This document shows, in pieces, positions 17,522 through 27,755 of a stretch of 32,899 bases of DNA. A program made the position numbers and the translations under genes. Source of the DNA: Gemmatimonadota bacterium (lineage in GTDB: Bacteria; Gemmatimonadota; Gemmatimonadetes; Gemmatimonadales; Gemmatimonadaceae); assembly GCA_947462095.1 (NCBI GenBank), contig CANHNQ010000027.1, positions 1 through 32,899 of the forward strand, read 5' to 3'. Under the pieces are notes generated by a model. The model was not told where the DNA came from and ran no database searches. It saw nothing but the letters and a program-made list of their open reading frames with translations. Position 1 is the first letter of the stretch. Each line of letters starts with the position of its first letter.

Positions 17522-18046
17522 TCAGTTGTCCTTGCGCGTGCTGTCCTTTGCGCGCGGTGGTGGTTCGGGCGGCCGAGACGTGGACGGTGGGGAGAAGTCA
17601 CCAGGTTCTTCGGCGGCCAGGATGTCCTGCGTCCAATCGGGCGTCTTCTGCAACACCTTGGTGGAGTCGAGCCGGAACTGAATCGCCATGGCCCACATAC
17701 CGGCCGTGACGAACATCAGGTTGCTGCGATAGGTCCCCAATTCCTCAGTGGCCGCGAGCCCGTTGGAGACAGTCTTTCGATCGCGATTGGTGCCGAAGAT
17801 GCGTCCCTCGCCCCCCTGGATCGGGAGGCCGCTATTCACATCGTGGACCATCACGCGCCAGTAGATCGGTTCGAGCGCCCGCGTCGGCTTGGTCTCAGGG
17901 GAGACGCGAATGACGAAATCCTCCGTCTTGAAGCGGAGTTCATTCGTTGGTGGTGGGCTGCCCCCGCCTCCGCAGCCGGCCATAACGAGGCCGGCTGCGG
18001 CGAGTGCGACCACGCGACGGAGACGACGCGTGCGCTCGGCGATCAT
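17522..18046 (-). CDS. Putative lipoprotein following inositol-phosphate synthase
   Basis: A 174-residue lipoprotein. The signal has a strongly basic start (RTRRLRR), a core VVALAAAGLVMAGC and lipid Cys25, followed by a Gly/Ser/Pro spacer. The mature part (FKTEDFVIRVSPE, IYWRVMVHDVNSGLPIQGGEGRIFG, YRSNLMFVTAGMWAMAIQF) reads like a small beta-sandwich. The C-terminus is Pro-rich and basic, so probably disordered. The ATG overlaps the ino1 stop as ATGA. A role with inositol lipids is only suggested by position. Confidence 0.75.
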   Translation of the reverse strand: MIAERTRRLRRVVALAAAGLVMAGCGGGGSPPPTNELRFKTEDFVIRVSPETKPTRALEPIYWRVMVHDVNSGLPIQGGEGRIFGTNRDRKTVSNGLAATEELGTYRSNLMFVTAGMWAMAIQFRLDSTKVLQKTPDWTQDILAAEEPGDFSPPSTSRPPEPPPRAKDSTRKDN

Positions 18047-19374
18047 TGATAGTATTCCAGCCCGAGGTGCGTGATCTGCTCTTCGCCCATCAGGTGTCGG
18101 AGCGTGTTCTTCAACTTGGTCTGCTGAATGAACAGATCGTGTTCCGGCTGGAGCCCAGGCGCCGTCTGCGGGGCCTTGTAGTAGAAGCTCAACCACTCCT
18201 GAATCCCCTTCATGCCGGCGCGCATCGCGAAGTCCGAGAAGAGCGCGAGGTCGAGCACCATCGGCGCGGCGAGAATCGAGTCACGGCACAGGAAGTTGAC
18301 CTTGATCTGCATCGGGTAGCCGAGCCACCCCTTGATGTCGATGTTGTCCCAGCCTTCCTTGTTGTCGCCGCGCGGCGGGTAGTAGTTGATGCGCACGACG
18401 TGCGAAAAATCCTTGTACAGCTCCGGATACACCTCGGGCTGCAGAATCGTGTGCAACACGGAAAGCTTCGACGCTTCCTTCGTCTTGAAGGACGCCGGAT
18501 CGTCGAGTACTTCGCCGTCGCGGTTGCCGAGGATGTTGGTGGAGTACCACCCTTCGAGACCGAGCATGCGCGCCTTGAGGCCCGGCGCGATGATCGTCTT
18601 CATCCACGTCTGGCCGGTCTTGAAGTCCTTACCGGAAACGGGTACGCCCTTCGCGATGGCGAGGTCGAGCAGCGCCGGGAAGTCCGCGGAGAGATTCGGC
18701 GCGCCATTGCAGTACGGGATGCCTTCCATGATGGCGGCATAGGCGTAGAGCATGCTGGGTGCGATCGCATCATCGTTCTCGTCCATCGCCTTTTCGAACG
18801 CTTCGATGGTCTGATGCTGCGGCCCCGAGCTGATGAACGTCTCGGTGGATCCGGTCCACACCATCACGCCACGCGTCGCGCCACTGCTCTGCATCACGTT
18901 GCGGATGTCGGCACGGATCTGCTCAGCGAGGTCACGCTTGTTCTTGCCCGTCTTCACATTGGTCGCGCGCGTGATGCGCGTGACGTAGCGGCTCTCAAAC
19001 ACGGCCGGCATCGGCTTGATGCTCTTGAGGAAATCGGCGATCGGTTCGATGTCCGACTTGTCGAGCACGCCCGCGTTCATGGCCGACTCGTAGGCGGTAT
19101 CCGGGATGGGATCCCAGGCGCCGAACACGATGTCGTCGAGCTTCGCGAGCGACACGAAATCCTTGATGAGCGGGCTGCGCCCGTCGGTGCGCTTGCCGAG
19201 GCGAATCGTCGCCATCTGAGACAGCGAACCGATGGGGACCGAGAGTCCGCGGCGCACGCGCTCAACGCCAGCGATAAACGTGGTGGCGACGGCGCCGAGA
19301 CCCGGCGTGAAGATGGCAAGCTTCCCCGTTGCCGGGGCTGGGGCCGCGGCATTACCGCGAGTCGAGTCGGACAC
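18043..19374 (-). CDS. ino1: myo-Inositol-1-phosphate synthase
   Basis: A 443-residue NAD-dependent enzyme converting glucose 6-phosphate to 1L-myo-inositol 1-phosphate. The nucleotide motif FTPGLGAVATTF is near the start. Typical later blocks are VFGAWDPIPD, MVWTGSTETF, FPALLDLAIAKGVPVSGKDFKTGQT, GWYSTNILGNRDGEVL and VRINYYPPRGDNKEGWDNIDIKGWLG, with the Lys-rich active site around KDFKTGQT. The GTG at 19374 is preferred: it is five bases after the upstream stop, GGAG lies ten bases ahead, and a longer reading would enter the transferase gene. The direct neighbour is a CDP-alcohol phosphatidyltransferase, a typical pairing for inositol-phospholipid synthesis. Confidence 0.94.
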   Translation of the reverse strand: MSDSTRGNAAAPAPATGKLAIFTPGLGAVATTFIAGVERVRRGLSVPIGSLSQMATIRLGKRTDGRSPLIKDFVSLAKLDDIVFGAWDPIPDTAYESAMNAGVLDKSDIEPIADFLKSIKPMPAVFESRYVTRITRATNVKTGKNKRDLAEQIRADIRNVMQSSGATRGVMVWTGSTETFISSGPQHQTIEAFEKAMDENDDAIAPSMLYAYAAIMEGIPYCNGAPNLSADFPALLDLAIAKGVPVSGKDFKTGQTWMKTIIAPGLKARMLGLEGWYSTNILGNRDGEVLDDPASFKTKEASKLSVLHTILQPEVYPELYKDFSHVVRINYYPPRGDNKEGWDNIDIKGWLGYPMQIKVNFLCRDSILAAPMVLDLALFSDFAMRAGMKGIQEWLSFYYKAPQTAPGLQPEHDLFIQQTKLKNTLRHLMGEEQITHLGLEYYQ

Positions 19375-19379
19375 TGCGT

Positions 19380-20003
19380 TTATTCTCCGGGGGAAGTGGT
19401 CGTGCGATACACAAAATTGATGCGCTGAAACACCGTAATCCACGCCGTCACCGCCAGCAGACTGACGATGCCGGCGAGAATCCAGCCGTTGAGCGCCAAG
19501 CCGAAAAAGGCTTGCGGAGCGGAGAGGAGCGTGATGCGTTCGGGGCGCTGCAGCATGCCGACTTTCGCATCGACGCCAAGCCCTTCAGCTCTGGCGCGCG
19601 TGTATGACGTGAGGAAGGTAGCGATAAGGGCCGCCAGCGTGACCAGCACCATGGGCTGGCTGGCGTGCACCGGGTGGGTCGCGTAGAACACCAGCAGACC
19701 GCCGAAGAGGAAGCCGTCGGCCACGCGGTCAAGGGTCGAGTCGTAGAACGCGCCAAAGACCGTACTCTGCCCCGTGCGGCGGGCGACGTTCCCGTCGAGC
19801 ACGTCAAAGAGTGCGGTCAGGCCGAGAAACCAGCCACCGGCGCTGATGTGCCCGGAGGCGAAGATGACCCCCGCCGTGCAGGTACAGATCGTGCCGATAG
19901 TGGTGATCGTGTTGGGGCGCACGCGTCGCGCAACGAGCCAGTCCGCCACGGGGGCGATGACTCGCATGTATCCGCGCTGGACGGCGCTCCAGAGTGATGG
20001 CAT
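19380..20003 (-). CDS. CDP-alcohol phosphatidyltransferase, probably phosphatidylinositol-phosphate synthase
   Basis: A 207-residue membrane enzyme that joins a CDP-activated lipid to an alcohol. The full family motif DG-x2-AR-x8-G-x3-D-x3-D is present in LFDVLDGNVARRTG followed by FGAFYDSTLDRVAD. About five to six membrane helices are predicted. The substrate alcohol cannot be read from the motif, but the gene is coupled to ino1 only five bases downstream, so inositol 1-phosphate is the best guess, as in the actinobacterial and Bacteroides inositol-lipid pathways. Phosphatidylglycerophosphate synthase is the alternative. It is the first gene of the inositol unit, 61 bases after namZ. No clear Shine-Dalgarno. 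Confidence 0.88.
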   Translation of the reverse strand: MPSLWSAVQRGYMRVIAPVADWLVARRVRPNTITTIGTICTCTAGVIFASGHISAGGWFLGLTALFDVLDGNVARRTGQSTVFGAFYDSTLDRVADGFLFGGLLVFYATHPVHASQPMVLVTLAALIATFLTSYTRARAEGLGVDAKVGMLQRPERITLLSAPQAFFGLALNGWILAGIVSLLAVTAWITVFQRINFVYRTTTSPGE

Positions 20004-20064: not shown

Positions 20065-21405
20065 TCAACGGTAGAGATAAAAGCGTCGGGCGTCCTTTTC
20101 GAACGCAATAACCGCCGGCAGCTGGCGATCCATCACGGCATCCGGGTCGGCGCCGCCCAGCAGGGCCTCCCTGACGCGGCCCGACCCCAGCCGCTGGTCG
20201 AAGCCGGCCGGGGTAACCCGGAGGGAGTCCTTGTGCACGAGGGCGAGGGCCCAGAGGATGGCCGCGCCGACGCGGGCAGGCTGCAGCCGATCGCGGTCGG
20301 TGACCTCGATGCGGATCCCGGGAATCGACTGCCCAGCGAATTTGCCATCGCCGGGCTTATTCGGGGTGAAGCGCTCCGCCTTGAATTTGACGCCGGTGAG
20401 CGAGAGGTCCTCGAGGATCCGGGTCACCGAGTCGGCGCGAAGCCAGGAGGCGCCGACTCGCTGGAACGGTTCGTCGGTGCCACGTCCAACGGACACGTTG
20501 CTCGACTCGAACGGAACGAGTGCCGGATAGAGCAGCGCGCTGGTGACGTTCGGCATGTTCGGTGAGGGGCGGACCCACGGCAGCGAGGTCTCGTCGAACC
20601 ACATGCTGCGACGCCAGTTCTTCATCGGCACGACCGTCAGTCGAGTCCCGAGCTTGAACTGGGCGTGGAACAGCCGCGCCATCTCGCCCATGGTGAGTCC
20701 ATGCCGGAGCGGCATGGGATACAGCGCGAAGCCGTTCGTCCGGTTCCCCGCGACGGGCATGTCGCCGTTGGCCAAGGCGGAATCGAGCAGCGCTCCCTCG
20801 ACGCGAGCGCCGGTGATCGGGTTGGGCCGATCGAGGACCAGAACCGGAATGCCGCGCTTCGCGCCCGCCTGCATCGCGTAGAGCATGACACCGACATAGG
20901 TCCAGGTGCGGGTGCCGATATCCTGAAGGTCGACGACGAGCACATCGACATCGGTGAGCAGACTCTCCGGCGGCGCGACCGTGCGATTCTGGTACAGCGA
21001 GTGGATGGTCAGCCCGGTCTTCGCGTCCTTCTCATCACTCAGGTTCGGACGATCCGCGGTTCCCGTCGCGCCATGCTCCGGCGCGAAGAGACGCACCAAT
21101 TTTACGCCGGCGCGTTGGGCGCGCGGGTCAGCCGCGAGGAGATCGATCGACCGATGCCCCTTCTCATCCACGCCGGTCTGATTGGTCACGAGGGCCACGC
21201 GCTTGCCGGCGATGAGCTTGATGCTATCGTCCAGCAGCACAGAAATCCCGGGACGGACCTTGCGGTTCCGGTTCCCGAGCGGCATTCCATCCGGACCCTC
21301 GTCGAGCGTCGGCACATTGTCGGGACGACCGCGGCCGGCACATCCCGCGAGCGGCGGGCCGAGACACACCACAGAGAGCAGCACCAGCGACTTGATGGCC
21401 TTCAC
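20065..21405 (-). CDS. namZ: Exo-beta-N-acetylmuramidase NamZ-type lipoprotein (DUF1343, GH171)
   Basis: A 446-residue lipoprotein. The signal MKAIKSLVLLSVVCLGPPLAGC ends in lipid Cys22. The mature part is the DUF1343 fold: KRVALVTNQTGVD, LFAPEHGATG (Glu and His conserved), VDVLVVDLQDIGTRTWTY, LVLDRPNPI, and FVSVGRGTDEPF-like SNVSVGRGTDEPFQ. The Bacillus subtilis member (YbbC) is known to release MurNAc from the non-reducing end of peptidoglycan chains. Here it should act outside the inner membrane. The GTG at 21405 has a strong GGAGGTGA ribosome site. It is divergent, with 63 bases between, from a beta-lactamase-like gene, echoing the ybbC/ybbE pairing of Bacillus. Confidence 0.9.
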   Translation of the reverse strand: MKAIKSLVLLSVVCLGPPLAGCAGRGRPDNVPTLDEGPDGMPLGNRNRKVRPGISVLLDDSIKLIAGKRVALVTNQTGVDEKGHRSIDLLAADPRAQRAGVKLVRLFAPEHGATGTADRPNLSDEKDAKTGLTIHSLYQNRTVAPPESLLTDVDVLVVDLQDIGTRTWTYVGVMLYAMQAGAKRGIPVLVLDRPNPITGARVEGALLDSALANGDMPVAGNRTNGFALYPMPLRHGLTMGEMARLFHAQFKLGTRLTVVPMKNWRRSMWFDETSLPWVRPSPNMPNVTSALLYPALVPFESSNVSVGRGTDEPFQRVGASWLRADSVTRILEDLSLTGVKFKAERFTPNKPGDGKFAGQSIPGIRIEVTDRDRLQPARVGAAILWALALVHKDSLRVTPAGFDQRLGSGRVREALLGGADPDAVMDRQLPAVIAFEKDARRFYLYR

Positions 21406-21468
21406 GCCTCACCTCCAGAAGATCCCGCTGCGCTCAGGTCGCGCAGCACCCCGCCCATTCGCGAACAC

Positions 21469-22752
21469 ATGACCCGTCCGGATCCCTACCCCCCTGCTCG
21501 CCTGTCCAGTCCTTCCGGCTGCGGCGCTGCCTGCACGAACGCACTGAATCGCGCCTTTCTCAAGCGGCGCGCGGCCTTGATGTTCGGGATGGCCGCCACC
21601 GCAGGGGTCCTGCTCGGGTGCGCTCATGGCGGCTCGGGCACGCGCGACCTCCCCCCGGTGCCGGGGATTGCGCGCGACCAAGCGCTCCGTCTCGGCGACA
21701 GCGTTCGCGCGGTGCTGACGCGGGCGATTGCCGACAGCGCCTTTCCCGGCGCCTACGCGGCCGTCGGCACCGCCGACGGGATCATCGTCGAGTACGGGGT
21801 GGGGCGCCTGGACGCGACCGACGGCACCCGGCCTTCGGCCACCACGATCTGGGATCTGGCCTCGCTCACCAAAGTGATCGGCACGACGAGCGCCATGATC
21901 CAGCTGGTCGGTTCAGGGCGGGTCGCCCTTGATTCACCGGTGGTGCGGTACCTGCCCGGCTGGACGGCCCCGGGCGCCGAACGCATCACGGTGCGCGATT
22001 TGTTGTCGCACTCCTCCGGGATGCCGGCGTGGCGCGCGTTGTACAAAGAGGCGAGTACGCCAGAGGAAGCCGAGCAGCAGCTGTTTGCGACCTCCCCGGA
22101 TACCCTGCCGGGTGTGCGGTATGTGTATAGTGATCTCGGCTTCATTCTGCTGGGGAAGCTGGTCGAACGGGTGAGCGGCGAACGGCTCGCGCAGTACGAC
22201 TCGGCGCACGTCTTCGCCCCGCTAGGCATGACGGACACGCGCTACCTCCCGGCGGCGGGATTGCTCCCGCGCATCGCCCCGACCGAGGAGGACCCGTGGC
22301 GCGGACGGAAGGTGCGTGGCGAAGTGCATGACGAGAATGCGGTCCGCCTGGGGGGCGTGTCCGGGCATGCCGGGCTGTTCTCCACCGGTCAGGATCTGAC
22401 GCGGTTCGCCCGGATGTACCTCCGACGCGGCACGCTGGACGGTGTCCGGGTCTTCGATTCGTCGGCGGTGGCGACGTTTACGCGGTTGCAGGACTCGACG
22501 ATCTCGCGCCGTGCGCTGGGGTGGGAGACACCGACCGGAGGCAACTCGGCCGGCGTCCGACTGTCTCCGCAGGCGTTCGGCCATACCGGGTTCACCGGCA
22601 CGTCGCTGTGGATGGATCCGACGCAGGGTGTGTTCGTGCTGCTGCTGACGAACCGGGTCAACCCAACGCGCGAGAATCGCAAGATCGGCGGAGTCCGCAC
22701 GGCGCTGGCGGACGCCGTGGTTGGTGCGTTGCGAGGTGTGCCGGGGCGATGA
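21469..22752 (+). CDS. Serine beta-lactamase-fold lipoprotein (YbbE/AmlE-like)
   Basis: A 427-residue protein of the class C beta-lactamase/esterase family. The active-site set is complete: S132-L-T-K135, Y220-S-D222 and H372-T-G374. A lipobox (GVLLGC, Cys51) follows a hydrophobic stretch and KRR pair, so it is anchored in the envelope. The segment before it is unusually long, so translation may begin later than the ATG at 21469, but no better start with a basic lead is visible; a Tat-type signal is possible. Such proteins are often peptidases or esterases acting on peptidoglycan, and a homologue (YbbE) sits with NamZ in Bacillus. It begins the plus-strand salvage block. Confidence 0.88.
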   Translation: MTRPDPYPPARLSSPSGCGAACTNALNRAFLKRRAALMFGMAATAGVLLGCAHGGSGTRDLPPVPGIARDQALRLGDSVRAVLTRAIADSAFPGAYAAVGTADGIIVEYGVGRLDATDGTRPSATTIWDLASLTKVIGTTSAMIQLVGSGRVALDSPVVRYLPGWTAPGAERITVRDLLSHSSGMPAWRALYKEASTPEEAEQQLFATSPDTLPGVRYVYSDLGFILLGKLVERVSGERLAQYDSAHVFAPLGMTDTRYLPAAGLLPRIAPTEEDPWRGRKVRGEVHDENAVRLGGVSGHAGLFSTGQDLTRFARMYLRRGTLDGVRVFDSSAVATFTRLQDSTISRRALGWETPTGGNSAGVRLSPQAFGHTGFTGTSLWMDPTQGVFVLLLTNRVNPTRENRKIGGVRTALADAVVGALRGVPGR

Positions 22753-22775
22753 CCGTGGAATCGGGTGACGCTTTC

Positions 22776-22804
22776 TTGAACGGGAGCGATTCACTCGCTA
22801 TTTT
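22776..22804 (+). promoter_or_regulatory. Sigma-70-type promoter before erpA
   Basis: TTGAAC (22776-22781), a 17-base spacer and TATTTT (22799-22804), then about 100 bases of untranslated leader to the erpA start. The AT-rich patch stands out from the GC-rich surroundings. It gives erpA and possibly the nagB-SSS-kinase genes a promoter separate from the beta-lactamase-like gene. Confidence 0.5.
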
Positions 22805-22914
22805 GCATACAGCTAGACGCGACGCTGTCCCGGTTGCCGATCGCGGGTGCGATTGGGTGCGGGCGGCGCGCTCCATCAGGCCGGGGTGTCAGCCGGCCGC
22901 TTCGGAGGACAGCA

Positions 22915-23271
22915 ATGAGCACGATGCAGCAGCCGGATGTCATGGTGGTTCTCACGTCCACGGCCGCGACGGAAGTTCGCAAGTTCATGGAAGCGGAGGG
23001 CGTGACGCCCGAACAGGGTGGCCTTCGCGTGTCGGTGATGCCGGGCGGATGCAGCGGCTTCAAGTACGGGCTGGTGATCGAGGACAAGCACGCGGAAGAC
23101 GACACGATCTTCGAGCTCGAGGGGATCAAGCTGTTCGTGGATCCGTTTTCGGCGCAGTATCTCAGCGGCACCACGATCGACTACGTCACGTCGATGCAGG
23201 GATCGGGCTTCACCTTCAAGAATCCGAACTCAACCGGCGGCTGCGGTTGCGGCAGTTCATTCTCGGCCTGA
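22915..23271 (+). CDS. erpA: A-type iron-sulfur carrier (ErpA/IscA family)
   Basis: A 118-residue carrier that receives Fe-S clusters from the scaffold and passes them to target enzymes. The three ligand cysteines are C46 (PGGCSGF) and C110/C112 (GGCGCGSSF), in the canonical C-x(n)-C-G-C layout. The body (LTSTAATEVRKFMEAEG, LRVSVMPGG, KLFVDPFSAQYLSGTTIDYV) is typical. GGAGG seven bases ahead supports the ATG at 22915. Its place inside the amino-sugar block is odd: no known step of that route needs an Fe-S protein, so it may only be a positional neighbour under its own promoter. Confidence 0.93.
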   Translation: MSTMQQPDVMVVLTSTAATEVRKFMEAEGVTPEQGGLRVSVMPGGCSGFKYGLVIEDKHAEDDTIFELEGIKLFVDPFSAQYLSGTTIDYVTSMQGSGFTFKNPNSTGGCGCGSSFSA

Positions 23272-23295
23272 GCCGGCGAGCCAACACCTATTTCT

Positions 23296-25260
23296 ATGAA
23301 TATGGCCTCCGGTTCTCCGGTGGCCGCTGAAGGTTCGCAGGCCCGCACGCTCGAGTCGAGCGGCGGGCCTGCGCGCGTCAGTGGCACCAGCTTCGTGCAC
23401 CCCGACATCAATGGCACGGTGCGCGAGCGAATTTCCACGATCATCATCGATGAGCACGGCGCCATGGCGCGGCTGGTGGCCGGGCGCATCGCGACGCTGA
23501 TGCGTGAGCGCGCGGCGACGGGTCGCCCCATCGTGCTGGGGCTCGCGACGGGGTCGACGCCGATCGGCGTGTATCGCGAGTTGATCCGCCTGCATCGCGA
23601 GGAGGGGCTGAGCTTCGGGCACGTGATCTCGTTCAATCTGGACGAGTACTACCCGATGGCGCCGGACAGCATTCATTCCTACCACCGGTTCATGTGGGAG
23701 AATCTGTTCTCCCACGTCGACGTTGATCCCGCGAACGTGCACATCCCTGACGGTGCGCTCGATCGGTCGGAGATCGATGCCGCCTGCGCGCGGTATGAGG
23801 CGGCGATTGTGGCAGCCGGTGGTGTGGACTTCCAGCTGCTCGGTATCGGCAAAACGGGACATATCGGCTTCAACGAGCCGGGCTCCGGGGAGCACAGCCG
23901 GACGCGCGTGGTCCATCTGGACTCGGTGACGCGCCGCGATGCGGCCGCGGATTTCTTCGGCGAGGACAACGTGCCTCGCGAAGCGATCACGATGGGGATC
24001 GCGACGATCCTGCAGGCGCGTGAAATCGCGATTCTGGCCACGGGCGAGCACAAAGCCGGTATCGTGCGTCGGTCGGTGGAGGGCGAGATCGATCGCGCCG
24101 TCGCGGCAACGTTCCTGCAGCGTCATCCCAACACGACATTCTATGTGGACGATGCGGCGGCGGCGGAGCTCACACGGGTCGCGACGCCGTGGCTGATCGA
24201 CGACGTCCGTTGGGACGATGCCCTCGCGGTGCGCGCGGTGACGTGGCTGGCCGGGCGCTGCCAGAAGGCGATTCTCAAGCTGACACAGCACGACTACGAC
24301 GAACACTCGATGTCGTCTCTTGTGGCACGGCACGGTTCCCCAGGGGCGGTGAACGGACTCGTGTTCAACGTGCTCGGTGCGAAGATCCGTGGAAAAAGCA
24401 AACTACCGCGCGGCATGAAGACGCTGTGTTTTTCGCCGCACCCAGACGACGATGTGATCTCGATGGGTGGTATTCTCCGCAAGTTTGTGGAGAACGAGAA
24501 CGACGTGACGGTGGCGTACATGACGAGCGGCAACATCGCCGTGTTCGATCACGATGTGCGTCGCTACATGGATTTTCTGGTGCGTCTCGATCACGAACGG
24601 ATCGGCGAAGGTACCGCCGTGCGACAGCTGGCGGACACGGTGCACGCGTTTCTCGAGGCCAAGCATCCCGGGCAAGTCGACATCCCCGAGGTGCAGGATA
24701 TCAAGCGCATCATCCGCGAGTCGGAAGCGGTGAGTGGCATTGAAGTGATGGGACTCACACGAGGGCACGCGCGCTTCCTGAACCTGCCGTTCTACCAAAC
24801 GGGGAAGGTCCGGAAGGATCCGATCGGCCCGGCGGATGTGGCCATCGTCGCCGAGCTGCTCCGGGAGTTTCAGCCCGAGATCATCTTCGTGGCGGGCGAC
24901 CTGTCAGACCCGCATGGCACCCACCGCATGTGTAAGGAAGCGATCGACCTCGCTCTGCTGGAGGTGTACGGTGGCCCGCAGGCGCCGGCCGCCCCGCAGG
25001 TGTGGCTGTACCGAGGCGCGTGGCAGGAATGGCCGGTGACGGAGGCCACGGTGCTGGTGCCGCTGTCACAGGAAGAACTGACGCTGAAGATTCAGGCCAT
25101 TTTCAAGCACCAATCGCAGAAGGATTCCGCGCCATTCCCCGGACAGGATGCCCGGGAGTTCTGGCAGCGCGTCGAGCAGCGCAACAAGGCGACATCGGCC
25201 CAACTCGACCAACTCGGCCTTGCCGAGTATTTCGCCATGGAGGCGTATGTCATCGCGTGA
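23296..25260 (+). CDS. nagB: Glucosamine-6-phosphate deaminase fused to PIG-L/LmbE deacetylase domain
   Basis: A 654-residue two-domain enzyme. Residues 45-330 are a NagB domain: LATGSTP at 83-89, active-site FNLDEYYP with D116, then GIGKTGHIGFNEPGS with H189 and E194, equivalent to H143 and E148 of E. coli NagB; the E. coli D141 position is T187. Residues 372-654 are a PIG-L (LmbE) zinc deacetylase domain: SPHPDDD at 380-386 and SDPHGTH at 537-543 give the metal ligands. The NagB half turns glucosamine 6-phosphate into fructose 6-phosphate and ammonia. Long NagB proteins of this type are, from memory, common in Bacteroidota. The PIG-L part may remove the acetyl group of GlcNAc-6-P first, standing in for NagA; this is inference. 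The next gene follows after 15 bases. Confidence 0.93.
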   Translation: MNMASGSPVAAEGSQARTLESSGGPARVSGTSFVHPDINGTVRERISTIIIDEHGAMARLVAGRIATLMRERAATGRPIVLGLATGSTPIGVYRELIRLHREEGLSFGHVISFNLDEYYPMAPDSIHSYHRFMWENLFSHVDVDPANVHIPDGALDRSEIDAACARYEAAIVAAGGVDFQLLGIGKTGHIGFNEPGSGEHSRTRVVHLDSVTRRDAAADFFGEDNVPREAITMGIATILQAREIAILATGEHKAGIVRRSVEGEIDRAVAATFLQRHPNTTFYVDDAAAAELTRVATPWLIDDVRWDDALAVRAVTWLAGRCQKAILKLTQHDYDEHSMSSLVARHGSPGAVNGLVFNVLGAKIRGKSKLPRGMKTLCFSPHPDDDVISMGGILRKFVENENDVTVAYMTSGNIAVFDHDVRRYMDFLVRLDHERIGEGTAVRQLADTVHAFLEAKHPGQVDIPEVQDIKRIIRESEAVSGIEVMGLTRGHARFLNLPFYQTGKVRKDPIGPADVAIVAELLREFQPEIIFVAGDLSDPHGTHRMCKEAIDLALLEVYGGPQAPAAPQVWLYRGAWQEWPVTEATVLVPLSQEELTLKIQAIFKHQSQKDSAPFPGQDAREFWQRVEQRNKATSAQLDQLGLAEYFAMEAYVIA

Positions 25261-25275
25261 TGCCGGTGTGACCTC

Positions 25276-26808
25276 GTGACCGGCCGATTCAGTCTTCTCG
25301 ATCTGCTCGTACTGTTGCTGTATCTCGGCGGCACCACGGCACTGGGGATGTGGATCGGTCGGTCACAGCGCTCGACCAGCGACTATTTCGTCGCCGATCG
25401 GGCCATTCCGTGGTGGGCGGTGCTGTTCTCGATCGTGGCGAGCGAGACATCCGCCCTCACGTTTATCAGCATCCCGGGACTGGCCTATACGGGAAACCTC
25501 GGCTTTCTCGAAGTCGTGGCCGGTTACATCGTGGGTCGCATCGTGGTGGCCTACACGCTCCTCCCTCGCTACTTCGCCGGCAATCTGGTCACGGCGTACG
25601 CGTTGCTGGAGACGCGGTTCGGCCTCGGCACCCGGCGCTTCACGTCGATCGTGTTCATGATCACGAGAGCCATGGCCGATGCCGTCCGAGTCTTCGCCAC
25701 GGCGATTCCCGTGGCGCTGATCATCGGCCCCGTCATGCCGAAGGAGTACACGATGCCGGCCGCGATCGTCGTCCTCGGCGTGCTGACCGTGATTTACACC
25801 TACCGCGGCGGCATGAAAGCGGTGGTGTGGACCGAACTCCTGCAGGCGAGCATCTACCTGATGGGCGGGATCTCGGCGATCGTGCTGATCGGACAGGCCG
25901 TCGATGGTGGATGGACGACGATCCTCGCGCAAGCGGGAGCGGCCGGCAAGCTGCAGGGGATCGACTGGTACACCGGTTTCGACCGTGCTCACACGATGTT
26001 CGCCGGCATCATCGGCGGCGCATTTCTGGCGATGGCCTCGCACGGCACCGATCAGATCATCGTGCAACGTTTGCTCTCGAGCCGCTCGTTGAAGCAGGCG
26101 CAGGTGGCCATCATCGGCAGCGGGTTCGCCGTGTTCGCACAGATGTCACTCTTCCTGATGGTGGGGCTGGGGCTGTGGGTCGTGTACGGGGGACAGAGTT
26201 TCGCCACGGCCGATCAGATCTTCCCGACGTTCATCATCGAGCGGATGCCGCACGGGTTGATCGGGCTGATCGTCGCGGCGATCATCGCGGCGACCATGAG
26301 CACGCATTCCGGCGCCATTAACGCATTGGCGGCGTCGTCCACGTACGATATCTATCTTCCGTTCACCGGCCGGTCGGCGGACGATCCCCGGACACTTCGC
26401 GTGAGCAAGCTGTTTGCCTTGGCATGGGGCATCGCACTGACAGCGGGCGCGCTCATGTTCAAGGAACAGGGCACGCCCGTGGTCGTGATCGCGCTATCGA
26501 TCGCTTCGTTCACGCAGGGCGGCCTGCTCGGTGGATTCTTCCTTGGCCTGTTCTGGTCGCGCGCGATTCAACGGGATGCGATCCTCGGCATGAGCGTCGG
26601 CATCAGCTGCATGGCCTTTGTTGTGTTCGCGAAACAGATCGTGGCGGCGTACCCGTCCATGGAGCCCACGTTGCATGGCGTGGCGTCGATTGCCTGGCCG
26701 TGGTACGTACTGATCGGTCTGTGCATCACCTTCGTGACGGGCGCCGTCTCTTCTTTCACTCACCCGGCGCCTGCCGCGCCGCGCGCCATTCAGGGGAATC
26801 GTTCATGA
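25276..26808 (+). CDS. Sodium:solute symporter (SSS family), probable amino-sugar importer
   Basis: A 510-residue inner-membrane transporter with about 13 helices. Family marks are the opening LLDLLVLLLYLGGTTALGMW, YFVADRAIPWWAV, the inner-helix segment RGGMKAVVWTELLQ, and HGTDQIIVQRLLSSRSLKQAQ. The SSS family moves sugars, amino acids or sialic acid with Na+. The substrate is not readable from sequence, but the gene lies directly between nagB-PIG-L and a sugar kinase with which it overlaps by four bases, so GlcNAc or MurNAc is most likely. In Tannerella forsythia an SSS protein (MurT) imports MurNAc beside a BadF-type kinase (MurK). The GTG start at 25276 gives the normal N-terminus. Confidence 0.9.
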   Translation: MTGRFSLLDLLVLLLYLGGTTALGMWIGRSQRSTSDYFVADRAIPWWAVLFSIVASETSALTFISIPGLAYTGNLGFLEVVAGYIVGRIVVAYTLLPRYFAGNLVTAYALLETRFGLGTRRFTSIVFMITRAMADAVRVFATAIPVALIIGPVMPKEYTMPAAIVVLGVLTVIYTYRGGMKAVVWTELLQASIYLMGGISAIVLIGQAVDGGWTTILAQAGAAGKLQGIDWYTGFDRAHTMFAGIIGGAFLAMASHGTDQIIVQRLLSSRSLKQAQVAIIGSGFAVFAQMSLFLMVGLGLWVVYGGQSFATADQIFPTFIIERMPHGLIGLIVAAIIAATMSTHSGAINALAASSTYDIYLPFTGRSADDPRTLRVSKLFALAWGIALTAGALMFKEQGTPVVVIALSIASFTQGGLLGGFFLGLFWSRAIQRDAILGMSVGISCMAFVVFAKQIVAAYPSMEPTLHGVASIAWPWYVLIGLCITFVTGAVSSFTHPAPAAPRAIQGNRS

Positions 26809-27755
26809 GTGCCGGACCTCTCGACCCGACACCACTCGTCGTTGGCGTTGACGGCGGCGGTAGCCGTACCCGCGTTGTTCTGGCGGATGCGGCCGGCCGT
26901 GTGCTGGCGCGCGTAGAAGGCGCCGGAACGGCGCTGACGCCGGGCCATGAAGGCGTCGCCGCTGACATCATCAAGGCGCTGATTGCCGATGTATTGACGT
27001 CAGCCGATCGCACGGAAACGCGCCCTGCCGTGTGTGTGGTCGGTGTCGCCGGCGCCGGACAGGAGCGTGCGGCGCAGGCGCTGTGGTCGGCGCTGGCGTC
27101 GCGACGCGTCGCCGACGACGTCTCGGTGCAGGCCGATGCGACCATCGCGATGGACGACGCGTTCGGCGATTCCGCCGGCGTGCTGCTGATCTCCGGCACC
27201 GGGTCGGTCGCGTACTCCCGCGCACCGGACGGACGACTCGAGCGTTGCGGCGGGTGGGGACCGAATATCGGCGACGAAGGGAGCGGTGCCTGGCTGGGGC
27301 GTCGCGCGCTGAGCGTGATCACCGCGGCGCACGACGGCCGCGAGCCGGACACGGCGCTCACGGGGGCGATCCTCACGGCGCTGGAGCTCGAGTCGCTCGA
27401 TGAGCTGATCCCGTGGGCTGCCGAGGCAACACCGGGACAGTTTGCGACACTCGCTCCGGTGGTCGCGAAGGTCGCGTCGACAGGCGATCTCCGCGCGAAT
27501 GCGTTGATCAGTTTCTGCGTGGAAGAGCTGTCACTGCACATCCGCACGTTGGCGCGTCGCTGCTTCATGGACGAGCGTGCCGCGATTCCTGTGGCGTTTG
27601 CCGGCGGTCTGCTGTCAAAGGGCTCACTGGTGCGGAAGCGACTTGAGCAGCGGCTCAAGAGCGCCGTCCCCGGCGCCACCGTTCGCGCGGACGAGGTCGA
27701 CGCGGCGCGCGGTGCGGTCCGGCGCGCGCGGCGTCTGCTGGGCGTCGAGGTCTAG
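26805..27755 (+). CDS. BadF/BadG/BcrA/BcrD-type amino-sugar kinase
   Basis: A 316-residue ATP-dependent kinase of the ASKHA fold. The phosphate-1 motif VVGVDGGGSRTRVVLAD is near the start, then GVAGAGQ, DATIAMDDAFG, the phosphate-2 motif LLISGTGSVAYS, and GGWGPNIGDEGSGAWLGR, typical of N-acetylglucosamine and N-acetylmuramic acid kinases (NagK/MurK type). FAGGLLS forms the adenosine site. It phosphorylates the sugar brought in by the upstream symporter; GlcNAc, MurNAc or glucosamine cannot be told apart. The ATG overlaps the symporter stop as ATGA. It is the last gene of the plus-strand block and is followed by the 24-bp hairpin. Confidence 0.9.
   Translation: MSAGPLDPTPLVVGVDGGGSRTRVVLADAAGRVLARVEGAGTALTPGHEGVAADIIKALIADVLTSADRTETRPAVCVVGVAGAGQERAAQALWSALASRRVADDVSVQADATIAMDDAFGDSAGVLLISGTGSVAYSRAPDGRLERCGGWGPNIGDEGSGAWLGRRALSVITAAHDGREPDTALTGAILTALELESLDELIPWAAEATPGQFATLAPVVAKVASTGDLRANALISFCVEELSLHIRTLARRCFMDERAAIPVAFAGGLLSKGSLVRKRLEQRLKSAVPGATVRADEVDAARGAVRRARRLLGVEV

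Follow-up and report, generated by a model that had tools for sequence, protein, structure and literature searches.

A block of genes at positions 20065 to 27755 of the 32,899-nucleotide stretch analysed here (the window; contig CANHNQ010000027.1 of assembly GCA_947462095.1) very probably serves to release, import, and catabolise amino sugars of the cell wall without an importer of the phosphotransferase system (PTS) and without NagA, the enzyme of the standard committed step from N-acetylglucosamine 6-phosphate (GlcNAc-6P) to glucosamine 6-phosphate (GlcN-6P) in bacteria. The gene content of the block and its conservation, the lack of both NagA and an amino-sugar PTS, the presence of murQ, anmK, and nagZ, and a set of intact catalytic and metal-binding motifs were all read directly from the sequence. 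Beyond this, we lean towards a more specific interpretation, namely that the block is a PTS-independent, NagA-less salvage unit for peptidoglycan amino sugars in which a PIG-L domain, fused to the deaminase NagB, takes the place of NagA. This replacement is the new and testable claim that we infer here. If true, it would close a gap in the pathway for many environmental genomes and correct the annotation of the fusion as “glucosamine-6-phosphate deaminase”, while the PTS-free route would join Bacillus-type release enzymes to a symporter and a kinase. An earlier note on this DNA had proposed a Na+-driven, kinase-based salvage of N-acetylmuramic acid (MurNAc) or N-acetylglucosamine (GlcNAc), and as a whole that interpretation is partly supported, its symporter-and-kinase route for peptidoglycan amino sugars being upheld.

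The window belongs to a draft genome of Gemmatimonas type, 3.64 Mb in size and 82% complete; among named genomes, its near relatives are Gemmatimonas and other members of the Gemmatimonadaceae, mostly metagenome-assembled genomes. All five genes named in the earlier note were found where it had placed them, with agreeing domain matches, while a sixth, IscA-like gene inside the block had been overlooked. The block includes one symporter of the sodium:solute symporter (SSS) family, and its features are as follows.

20065–21405, minus strand: NamZ-type exo-beta-N-acetylmuramidase, predicted lipoprotein (PF07075, NamZ_N, 231.9 bits; PF20732, NamZ_C, 123.5 bits)
21469–22752, plus strand: serine beta-lactamase-fold lipoprotein, PBP4B/AmiE-like (PF00144, 203.7 bits)
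22915–23271, plus strand: A-type Fe-S carrier, IscA/ErpA-like (PF01521, 69.9 bits)
23296–25260, plus strand: NagB–PIG-L fusion, proposed GlcN-6P deaminase and GlcNAc-6P deacetylase (NF002557, PRK02122, 899.9 bits, cut-off 384)
23431–24201, plus strand: NagB (deaminase) domain of the fusion, residues 46–302 (Glucosamine_iso; VIA-align 1dea Z 36.4, 2bkv Z 36.3)
24412–25257, plus strand: PIG-L (zinc deacetylase) domain of the fusion, residues 373–654 (PF02585, 64 bits)
25276–26808, plus strand: SSS-family Na+:solute symporter, proposed MurNAc/GlcNAc importer (SSF; TIGR00813, 192.4 bits, cut-off 184)
26805–27755, plus strand: BadF/NagK-type sugar kinase, proposed dual MurNAc/GlcNAc 6-kinase (PF01869, BcrAD_BadFG, 120.6 bits)

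The fusion, symporter, and kinase genes form a tightly packed trio, with 15 nt between the first two and an ATGA overlap joining the stop codon of the symporter to the start codon of the kinase. The beta-lactamase-fold gene, which starts at either 21469 or 21580, is divergent from namZ, and both of these genes encode lipobox-like N-termini as judged by eye (LAGC in NamZ, LLGC in the beta-lactamase-fold protein). Both NamZ domains are covered nearly end to end by their Pfam models, and a match to PDB entry 4k05 spans residues 49–445 (E = 1e-53); the predicted function of this protein is the exo-release of MurNAc. For the beta-lactamase-fold protein, the best NCBIfam match was PRK03642 (PBP4B), at 147 bits under a cut-off of 385.

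In the pathway that we propose, NamZ and the PBP4B/AmiE-like lipoprotein would trim wall fragments outside the cytoplasmic membrane to yield MurNAc and GlcNAc, with an enzyme similar to NagZ, of glycoside hydrolase family 3 (GH3), probably working with or replacing NamZ in relatives. The free sugars would be brought in with Na+ by the symporter and phosphorylated by the BadF/NagK-type kinase to MurNAc 6-phosphate (MurNAc-6P) and GlcNAc-6P, after which MurQ, encoded in a separate murQ–anmK–nagZ operon, would convert MurNAc-6P to GlcNAc-6P. The PIG-L domain would then deacetylate GlcNAc-6P in NagA’s place, and within the same polypeptide chain the NagB domain would deaminate the resulting GlcN-6P to fructose 6-phosphate. 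The substrate of the transporter, the substrate range of the kinase, and the PIG-L reaction in this scheme are predictions drawn from knowledge of the protein families and from gene context.

The absence of NagA, which the earlier note had reported for the window, holds across the genome and far beyond it. None of 32 family genomes and none of 160 phylum genomes had a match to the NagA model TIGR00221 above its cut-off, with 7 of 14 control genomes positive; although the genome carrying the window is 82% complete, the 31 relatives tested alongside it for nagA are each at least 90% complete. Weaker TIGR00221 matches (E < 1e-15) occurred in only 4 of the 160 phylum genomes, all from one distant family. 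The sensitivity of this model is doubtful, as it was silent in B. subtilis and Bacteroides ihuae at 1e-15, and for that reason we built a second, independent profile on 12 NagA sequences that span several phyla, those of Listeria, Staphylococcus, and Parabacteroides among them. This profile returned only partial matches of 35–38 bits in the family, as opposed to best scores of 163–407 bits in the four distant genomes, which served as positive controls. The same absence was thus obtained with both models, and we rejected the idea that a single model had overlooked NagA. Taken together, these searches support a true absence of NagA from this genome. The NagB–PIG-L fusion, meanwhile, was detected over cut-off in 104 of the 160 phylum genomes, and in the four genomes encoding NagA-like proteins NagB is a stand-alone enzyme, with no fusion present. 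The Fisher value for this last association (0.014) is not independent evidence, given that NagA-like genomes are few and of one lineage; the evidence lies in the phylum-wide absence.

The fusion family itself is already known (PRK02122) and is annotated as a deaminase. No literature on PIG-L acting on GlcNAc-6P, or on the function of NagB–PIG-L proteins, was found in open-licence papers, subscription journals being outside the scope of the search; in Flavobacterium johnsoniae, attempts to express the NagB of a chitin locus failed, and NagA was presumed to be a separate protein (PMC5127042). In the predicted structure of the fusion (mean predicted local distance difference test score, pLDDT, 81; predicted template modelling score 0.58, at which the position of one domain relative to the other should not be trusted), structure comparison matched the first domain to NagB structures with Z scores of 36, and residues 373–654 to BshB (Z 18.0) and the Pyrococcus diacetylchitobiose deacetylase Dac (Z 17.5). 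Both of these PDB relatives of the PIG-L domain are GlcNAc deacetylases. The NagB catalytic residues D116, H189, and E194 (D72, H143, and E148 in E. coli) are invariant in 84 of 84 Gemmatimonadota copies, and the PIG-L motifs are likewise retained, with the HPDD motif found as SPHPDDD in 80 of the 84 and the second, HxxH-type motif as GDLxDPHGTH in all of them; the zinc motif is conserved. Fusions from Bacteroidota share 43–52% identity and the same architecture. Whether the fusion is a bifunctional GlcNAc-6P deacetylase and GlcN-6P deaminase, and hence a non-orthologous replacement of NagA across the phylum Gemmatimonadota, is in our judgement an even call.

Several observations weigh against this assignment, and some of them favour an explanation in which PIG-L deacetylates another GlcNAc compound or regulates NagB, with GlcNAc-6P passing to an unrecognised enzyme, for instance towards UDP-GlcNAc. 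The kinase is present with neither the fusion nor NagA, and hence with no recognised deacetylase, in 41 of the 160 phylum genomes, which indicates that the kinase can be retained without deacetylation by the fusion and that GlcNAc-6P must have some other fate in these genomes. Even within the family, the fusion and the kinase do not lie within 4 kb of each other in 15 of 44 fusion-bearing genomes. In Bacteroidales, the fusion of Parabacteroides distasonis directly follows two nagA genes (L163:2818-7331, a plasmid record), and both copies inspected in this order, this one and that of Bacteroides finegoldii (L161:2902-4893), have lost the NagB catalytic residues and kept the PIG-L motif. A decayed NagB next to a preserved PIG-L, together with the adjoining nagA, means that PIG-L may have another substrate there. 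Finally, a threonine (Thr187) stands where E. coli NagB has D141 in 84 of 84 Gemmatimonadota copies, although this is not decisive since B. subtilis NagB carries an asparagine at the same position. Set against a different role for PIG-L are its fusion to the enzyme that acts next in the pathway, beside a kinase and in a NagA-less phylum, the GlcNAc deacetylase activity of its PDB relatives, and the missing fusion in the four genomes with NagA-like proteins. On balance, we regard such a role as a credible but less probable explanation. As separate observations, the label “glucosamine-6-phosphate deaminase” may be wrong for Bacteroidales NagB–PIG-L proteins, and the kinase-only genomes include G001, G009, G017, G019, G021, G023, G032, and G110.

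The kinase was found in all 32 family genomes tested, in a single clear copy each, and its best NCBIfam match was the GlcNAc kinase NagK_SO3507, far under cut-off (106 vs 370 bits). In a profile search of the PDB, the best match was 8zo3, the CaMurK of Clostridium (208 bits), with Tannerella MurK at about 30 bits; the predicted structure of the kinase (pLDDT 92) gave a similar ranking, with Z scores of 33.2 for CaMurK with GlcNAc (8zo3), 31.2 for human NagK, and 24.1 for Tannerella MurK, and with a putative NagK of C. violaceum also among its close structural neighbours. The catalytic residue D111 and the GDE motif are conserved. A Tannerella-type kinase was rejected on both the profile scores and the model Z scores, and of the likeness to Tannerella suggested in the earlier note, the pairing of a BadF-type kinase with an SSS symporter stands, while the kinase itself groups with CaMurK and NagK. 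The lactyl-binding positions of Tannerella MurK are S133-P134-L135 and T94 (PMC10465942), and the corresponding residues here are G149-G150-W151 and A110, such that the pocket of a strict MurNAc kinase is not matched. No bulky charged residue occupies these positions, and MurNAc is therefore not excluded from the kinase. Our best guess, based on these sequence and model comparisons, is that the kinase has a dual MurNAc/GlcNAc range. For the symporter, sequence gives membership of the SSS superfamily, its best PDB match (5nv9) being titled a putative sodium:solute symporter, and MurNAc and GlcNAc are its presumed substrates.

The close structural similarity of the kinase to human and putative C. 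violaceum NagK, along with its NCBIfam match, could also suggest that GlcNAc, derived from chitin or peptidoglycan, is the sole sugar handled by the symporter and kinase, and that MurNAc enters metabolism solely as anhydro-MurNAc via the murQ–anmK–nagZ operon, where anmK adjoins murQ in the family and would supply MurNAc-6P independently. We consider this unlikely, as many genomes link NamZ, which frees MurNAc rather than GlcNAc, to the block, the top-matching CaMurK phosphorylates both MurNAc and GlcNAc (PMC5790795), and small residues (G149, G150, and A110) lie at the lactyl-discriminating positions.

The genome does encode MurQ, at G000:C4:31304-32173 on a different contig (357.7 bits against a cut-off of 302), with anmK next and then a NagZ-like GH3 gene that shows no clear signal peptide. 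Of 118 family genomes, 107 had a MurQ match above the cut-off, and anmK adjoined murQ in 32 of the 32 family genomes tested. Hence, a conventional cytoplasmic route of anhydro-MurNAc recycling appears to exist beside the block, and an absence of murQ from the genome was rejected. As for the PTS, no enzyme IIC component (EIIC) was detected in the genome carrying the window, and 25 of the 32 family genomes, this one included, are without any EIIC; of the 7 carriers, the one inspected is glucose-type, and on that single EIIC an amino-sugar PTS in relatives was rejected. The earlier note had described the window as lacking a PTS, nagA, and murQ: the first two statements extend to the genome, whereas the third is correct for the window only. 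Likewise, of the full conventional nagA/murQ/PTS set that, together with a lack of conservation of the block among relatives, would have argued for a different interpretation, only the murQ part was found elsewhere, and the block recurs both across the family and in other families, a recurrence that speaks for more than chance placement. A glucose-type PTS EIIBC gene adjoining an enzyme I-like frame was seen in some Gemmatimonadaceae (L181:28-3336, G015).

Across the 160 phylum genomes, the kinase was detected in 134, the fusion in 104, and both in 93. The two genes lie at most 4 kb apart in 35 of these 93 genomes, 29 of them among the 44 fusion-bearing Gemmatimonadaceae. Gene neighbourhoods were counted in 80 named loci selected because they carry the fusion, using as denominators the loci with room to see the neighbour in question. 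The SSS gene directly follows the fusion in 43 of 61 such loci and the kinase was seen in 39 of 61, while the IscA-like gene precedes the fusion in 47 of 70. Counts made across the family with our home-made gene caller are lower bounds, as it overlooked the window’s own beta-lactamase-fold gene.

Ordinary chromosomal synteny of unrelated genes would also place these genes together, and the neighbours on both sides of the block (pyruvate-dehydrogenase-type, INO1, PIPS, IscA, DAACS, and APC genes, with IscA lying inside it) are indeed kept in the same order across the family. Nevertheless, four loci from other families of this class (L187, L190, L191, and L192) have the fusion, symporter, and kinase together without INO1, PIPS, or IscA; the L187, L191, and L192 loci add GH3 and beta-lactamase-fold genes, and L187 and L192 also NamZ. 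This joint occurrence outside Gemmatimonas surroundings suggests that the linkage is probably functional and not mere synteny. The overlap of the symporter and kinase reading frames and the GH3–beta-lactamase-fold fusion in relatives also argue against synteny, which is largely refuted and seems to us very improbable. In several relatives GH3 lies beside the beta-lactamase fold or is fused to it. The IscA-like gene, missing from the cluster in other families, is a conserved passenger in Gemmatimonadaceae with no evident amino-sugar link. Many relatives (L053:6783-8660, L058:5791-7629, and others) also carry, between their beta-lactamase-fold and IscA genes, a second and distant SSS-family symporter gene (about 600 amino acids) that is absent from the window.

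The block resembles the MurNAc systems of both Bacillus and Tannerella and is a member of neither, having murQ elsewhere, a kinase of another clade, and no NagA. In B. subtilis, murQ-murR-murP-amiE-nagZ-ybbC(namZ) are found in one place (PMC5061867), and as in that cluster, NamZ, an AmiE-like beta-lactamase fold, and, in relatives, a GH3 NagZ are grouped with sugar uptake, with MurQ downstream in the pathway. Here, however, an SSS symporter and an ATP-dependent kinase replace the PTS importer MurP, murQ sits in a separate operon with anmK and nagZ, and the block lacks murR and includes the NagB–PIG-L fusion in a NagA-less genome. The murTKQ system of Tannerella forsythia (PMC5790795) similarly has an SSS symporter beside a BadF-type kinase, is PTS-free, and has MurQ in the genome, but the kinase in the window is of the CaMurK/NagK type rather than that of a strict MurNAc kinase, and murQ is outside the operon; the symporter is placed at the level of the SSS superfamily. 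Bacteroidota NagB–PIG-L proteins (PRK02122/NF002557) share the domain architecture and the zinc motif; there, nagA can adjoin the fusion and NagB can be degenerate, whereas Gemmatimonadota are NagA-less, with intact NagB residues and a fusion beside the symporter and kinase. Finally, Rhodothermus marinus RmNag3 is a GH3–beta-lactamase fusion (PMC6987092), an arrangement echoed by the GH3 and beta-lactamase domains of relatives L191 and L192, in contrast to the window, where the beta-lactamase fold is encoded by a gene of its own and the glycosidase is NamZ.

Two further observations concern genes outside the block. Adjoining it on the minus strand (18043–20003), genes for inositol-phosphate-synthase-like and phosphatidylinositol-phosphate-synthase-like proteins lie side by side and are conserved across the family, and their probable role is inositol phospholipid synthesis. 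A second namZ copy, 44% identical to the first and cut by a contig end, was found near a chondroitinase-B-like gene (L050:9565-10368; G000:C124).

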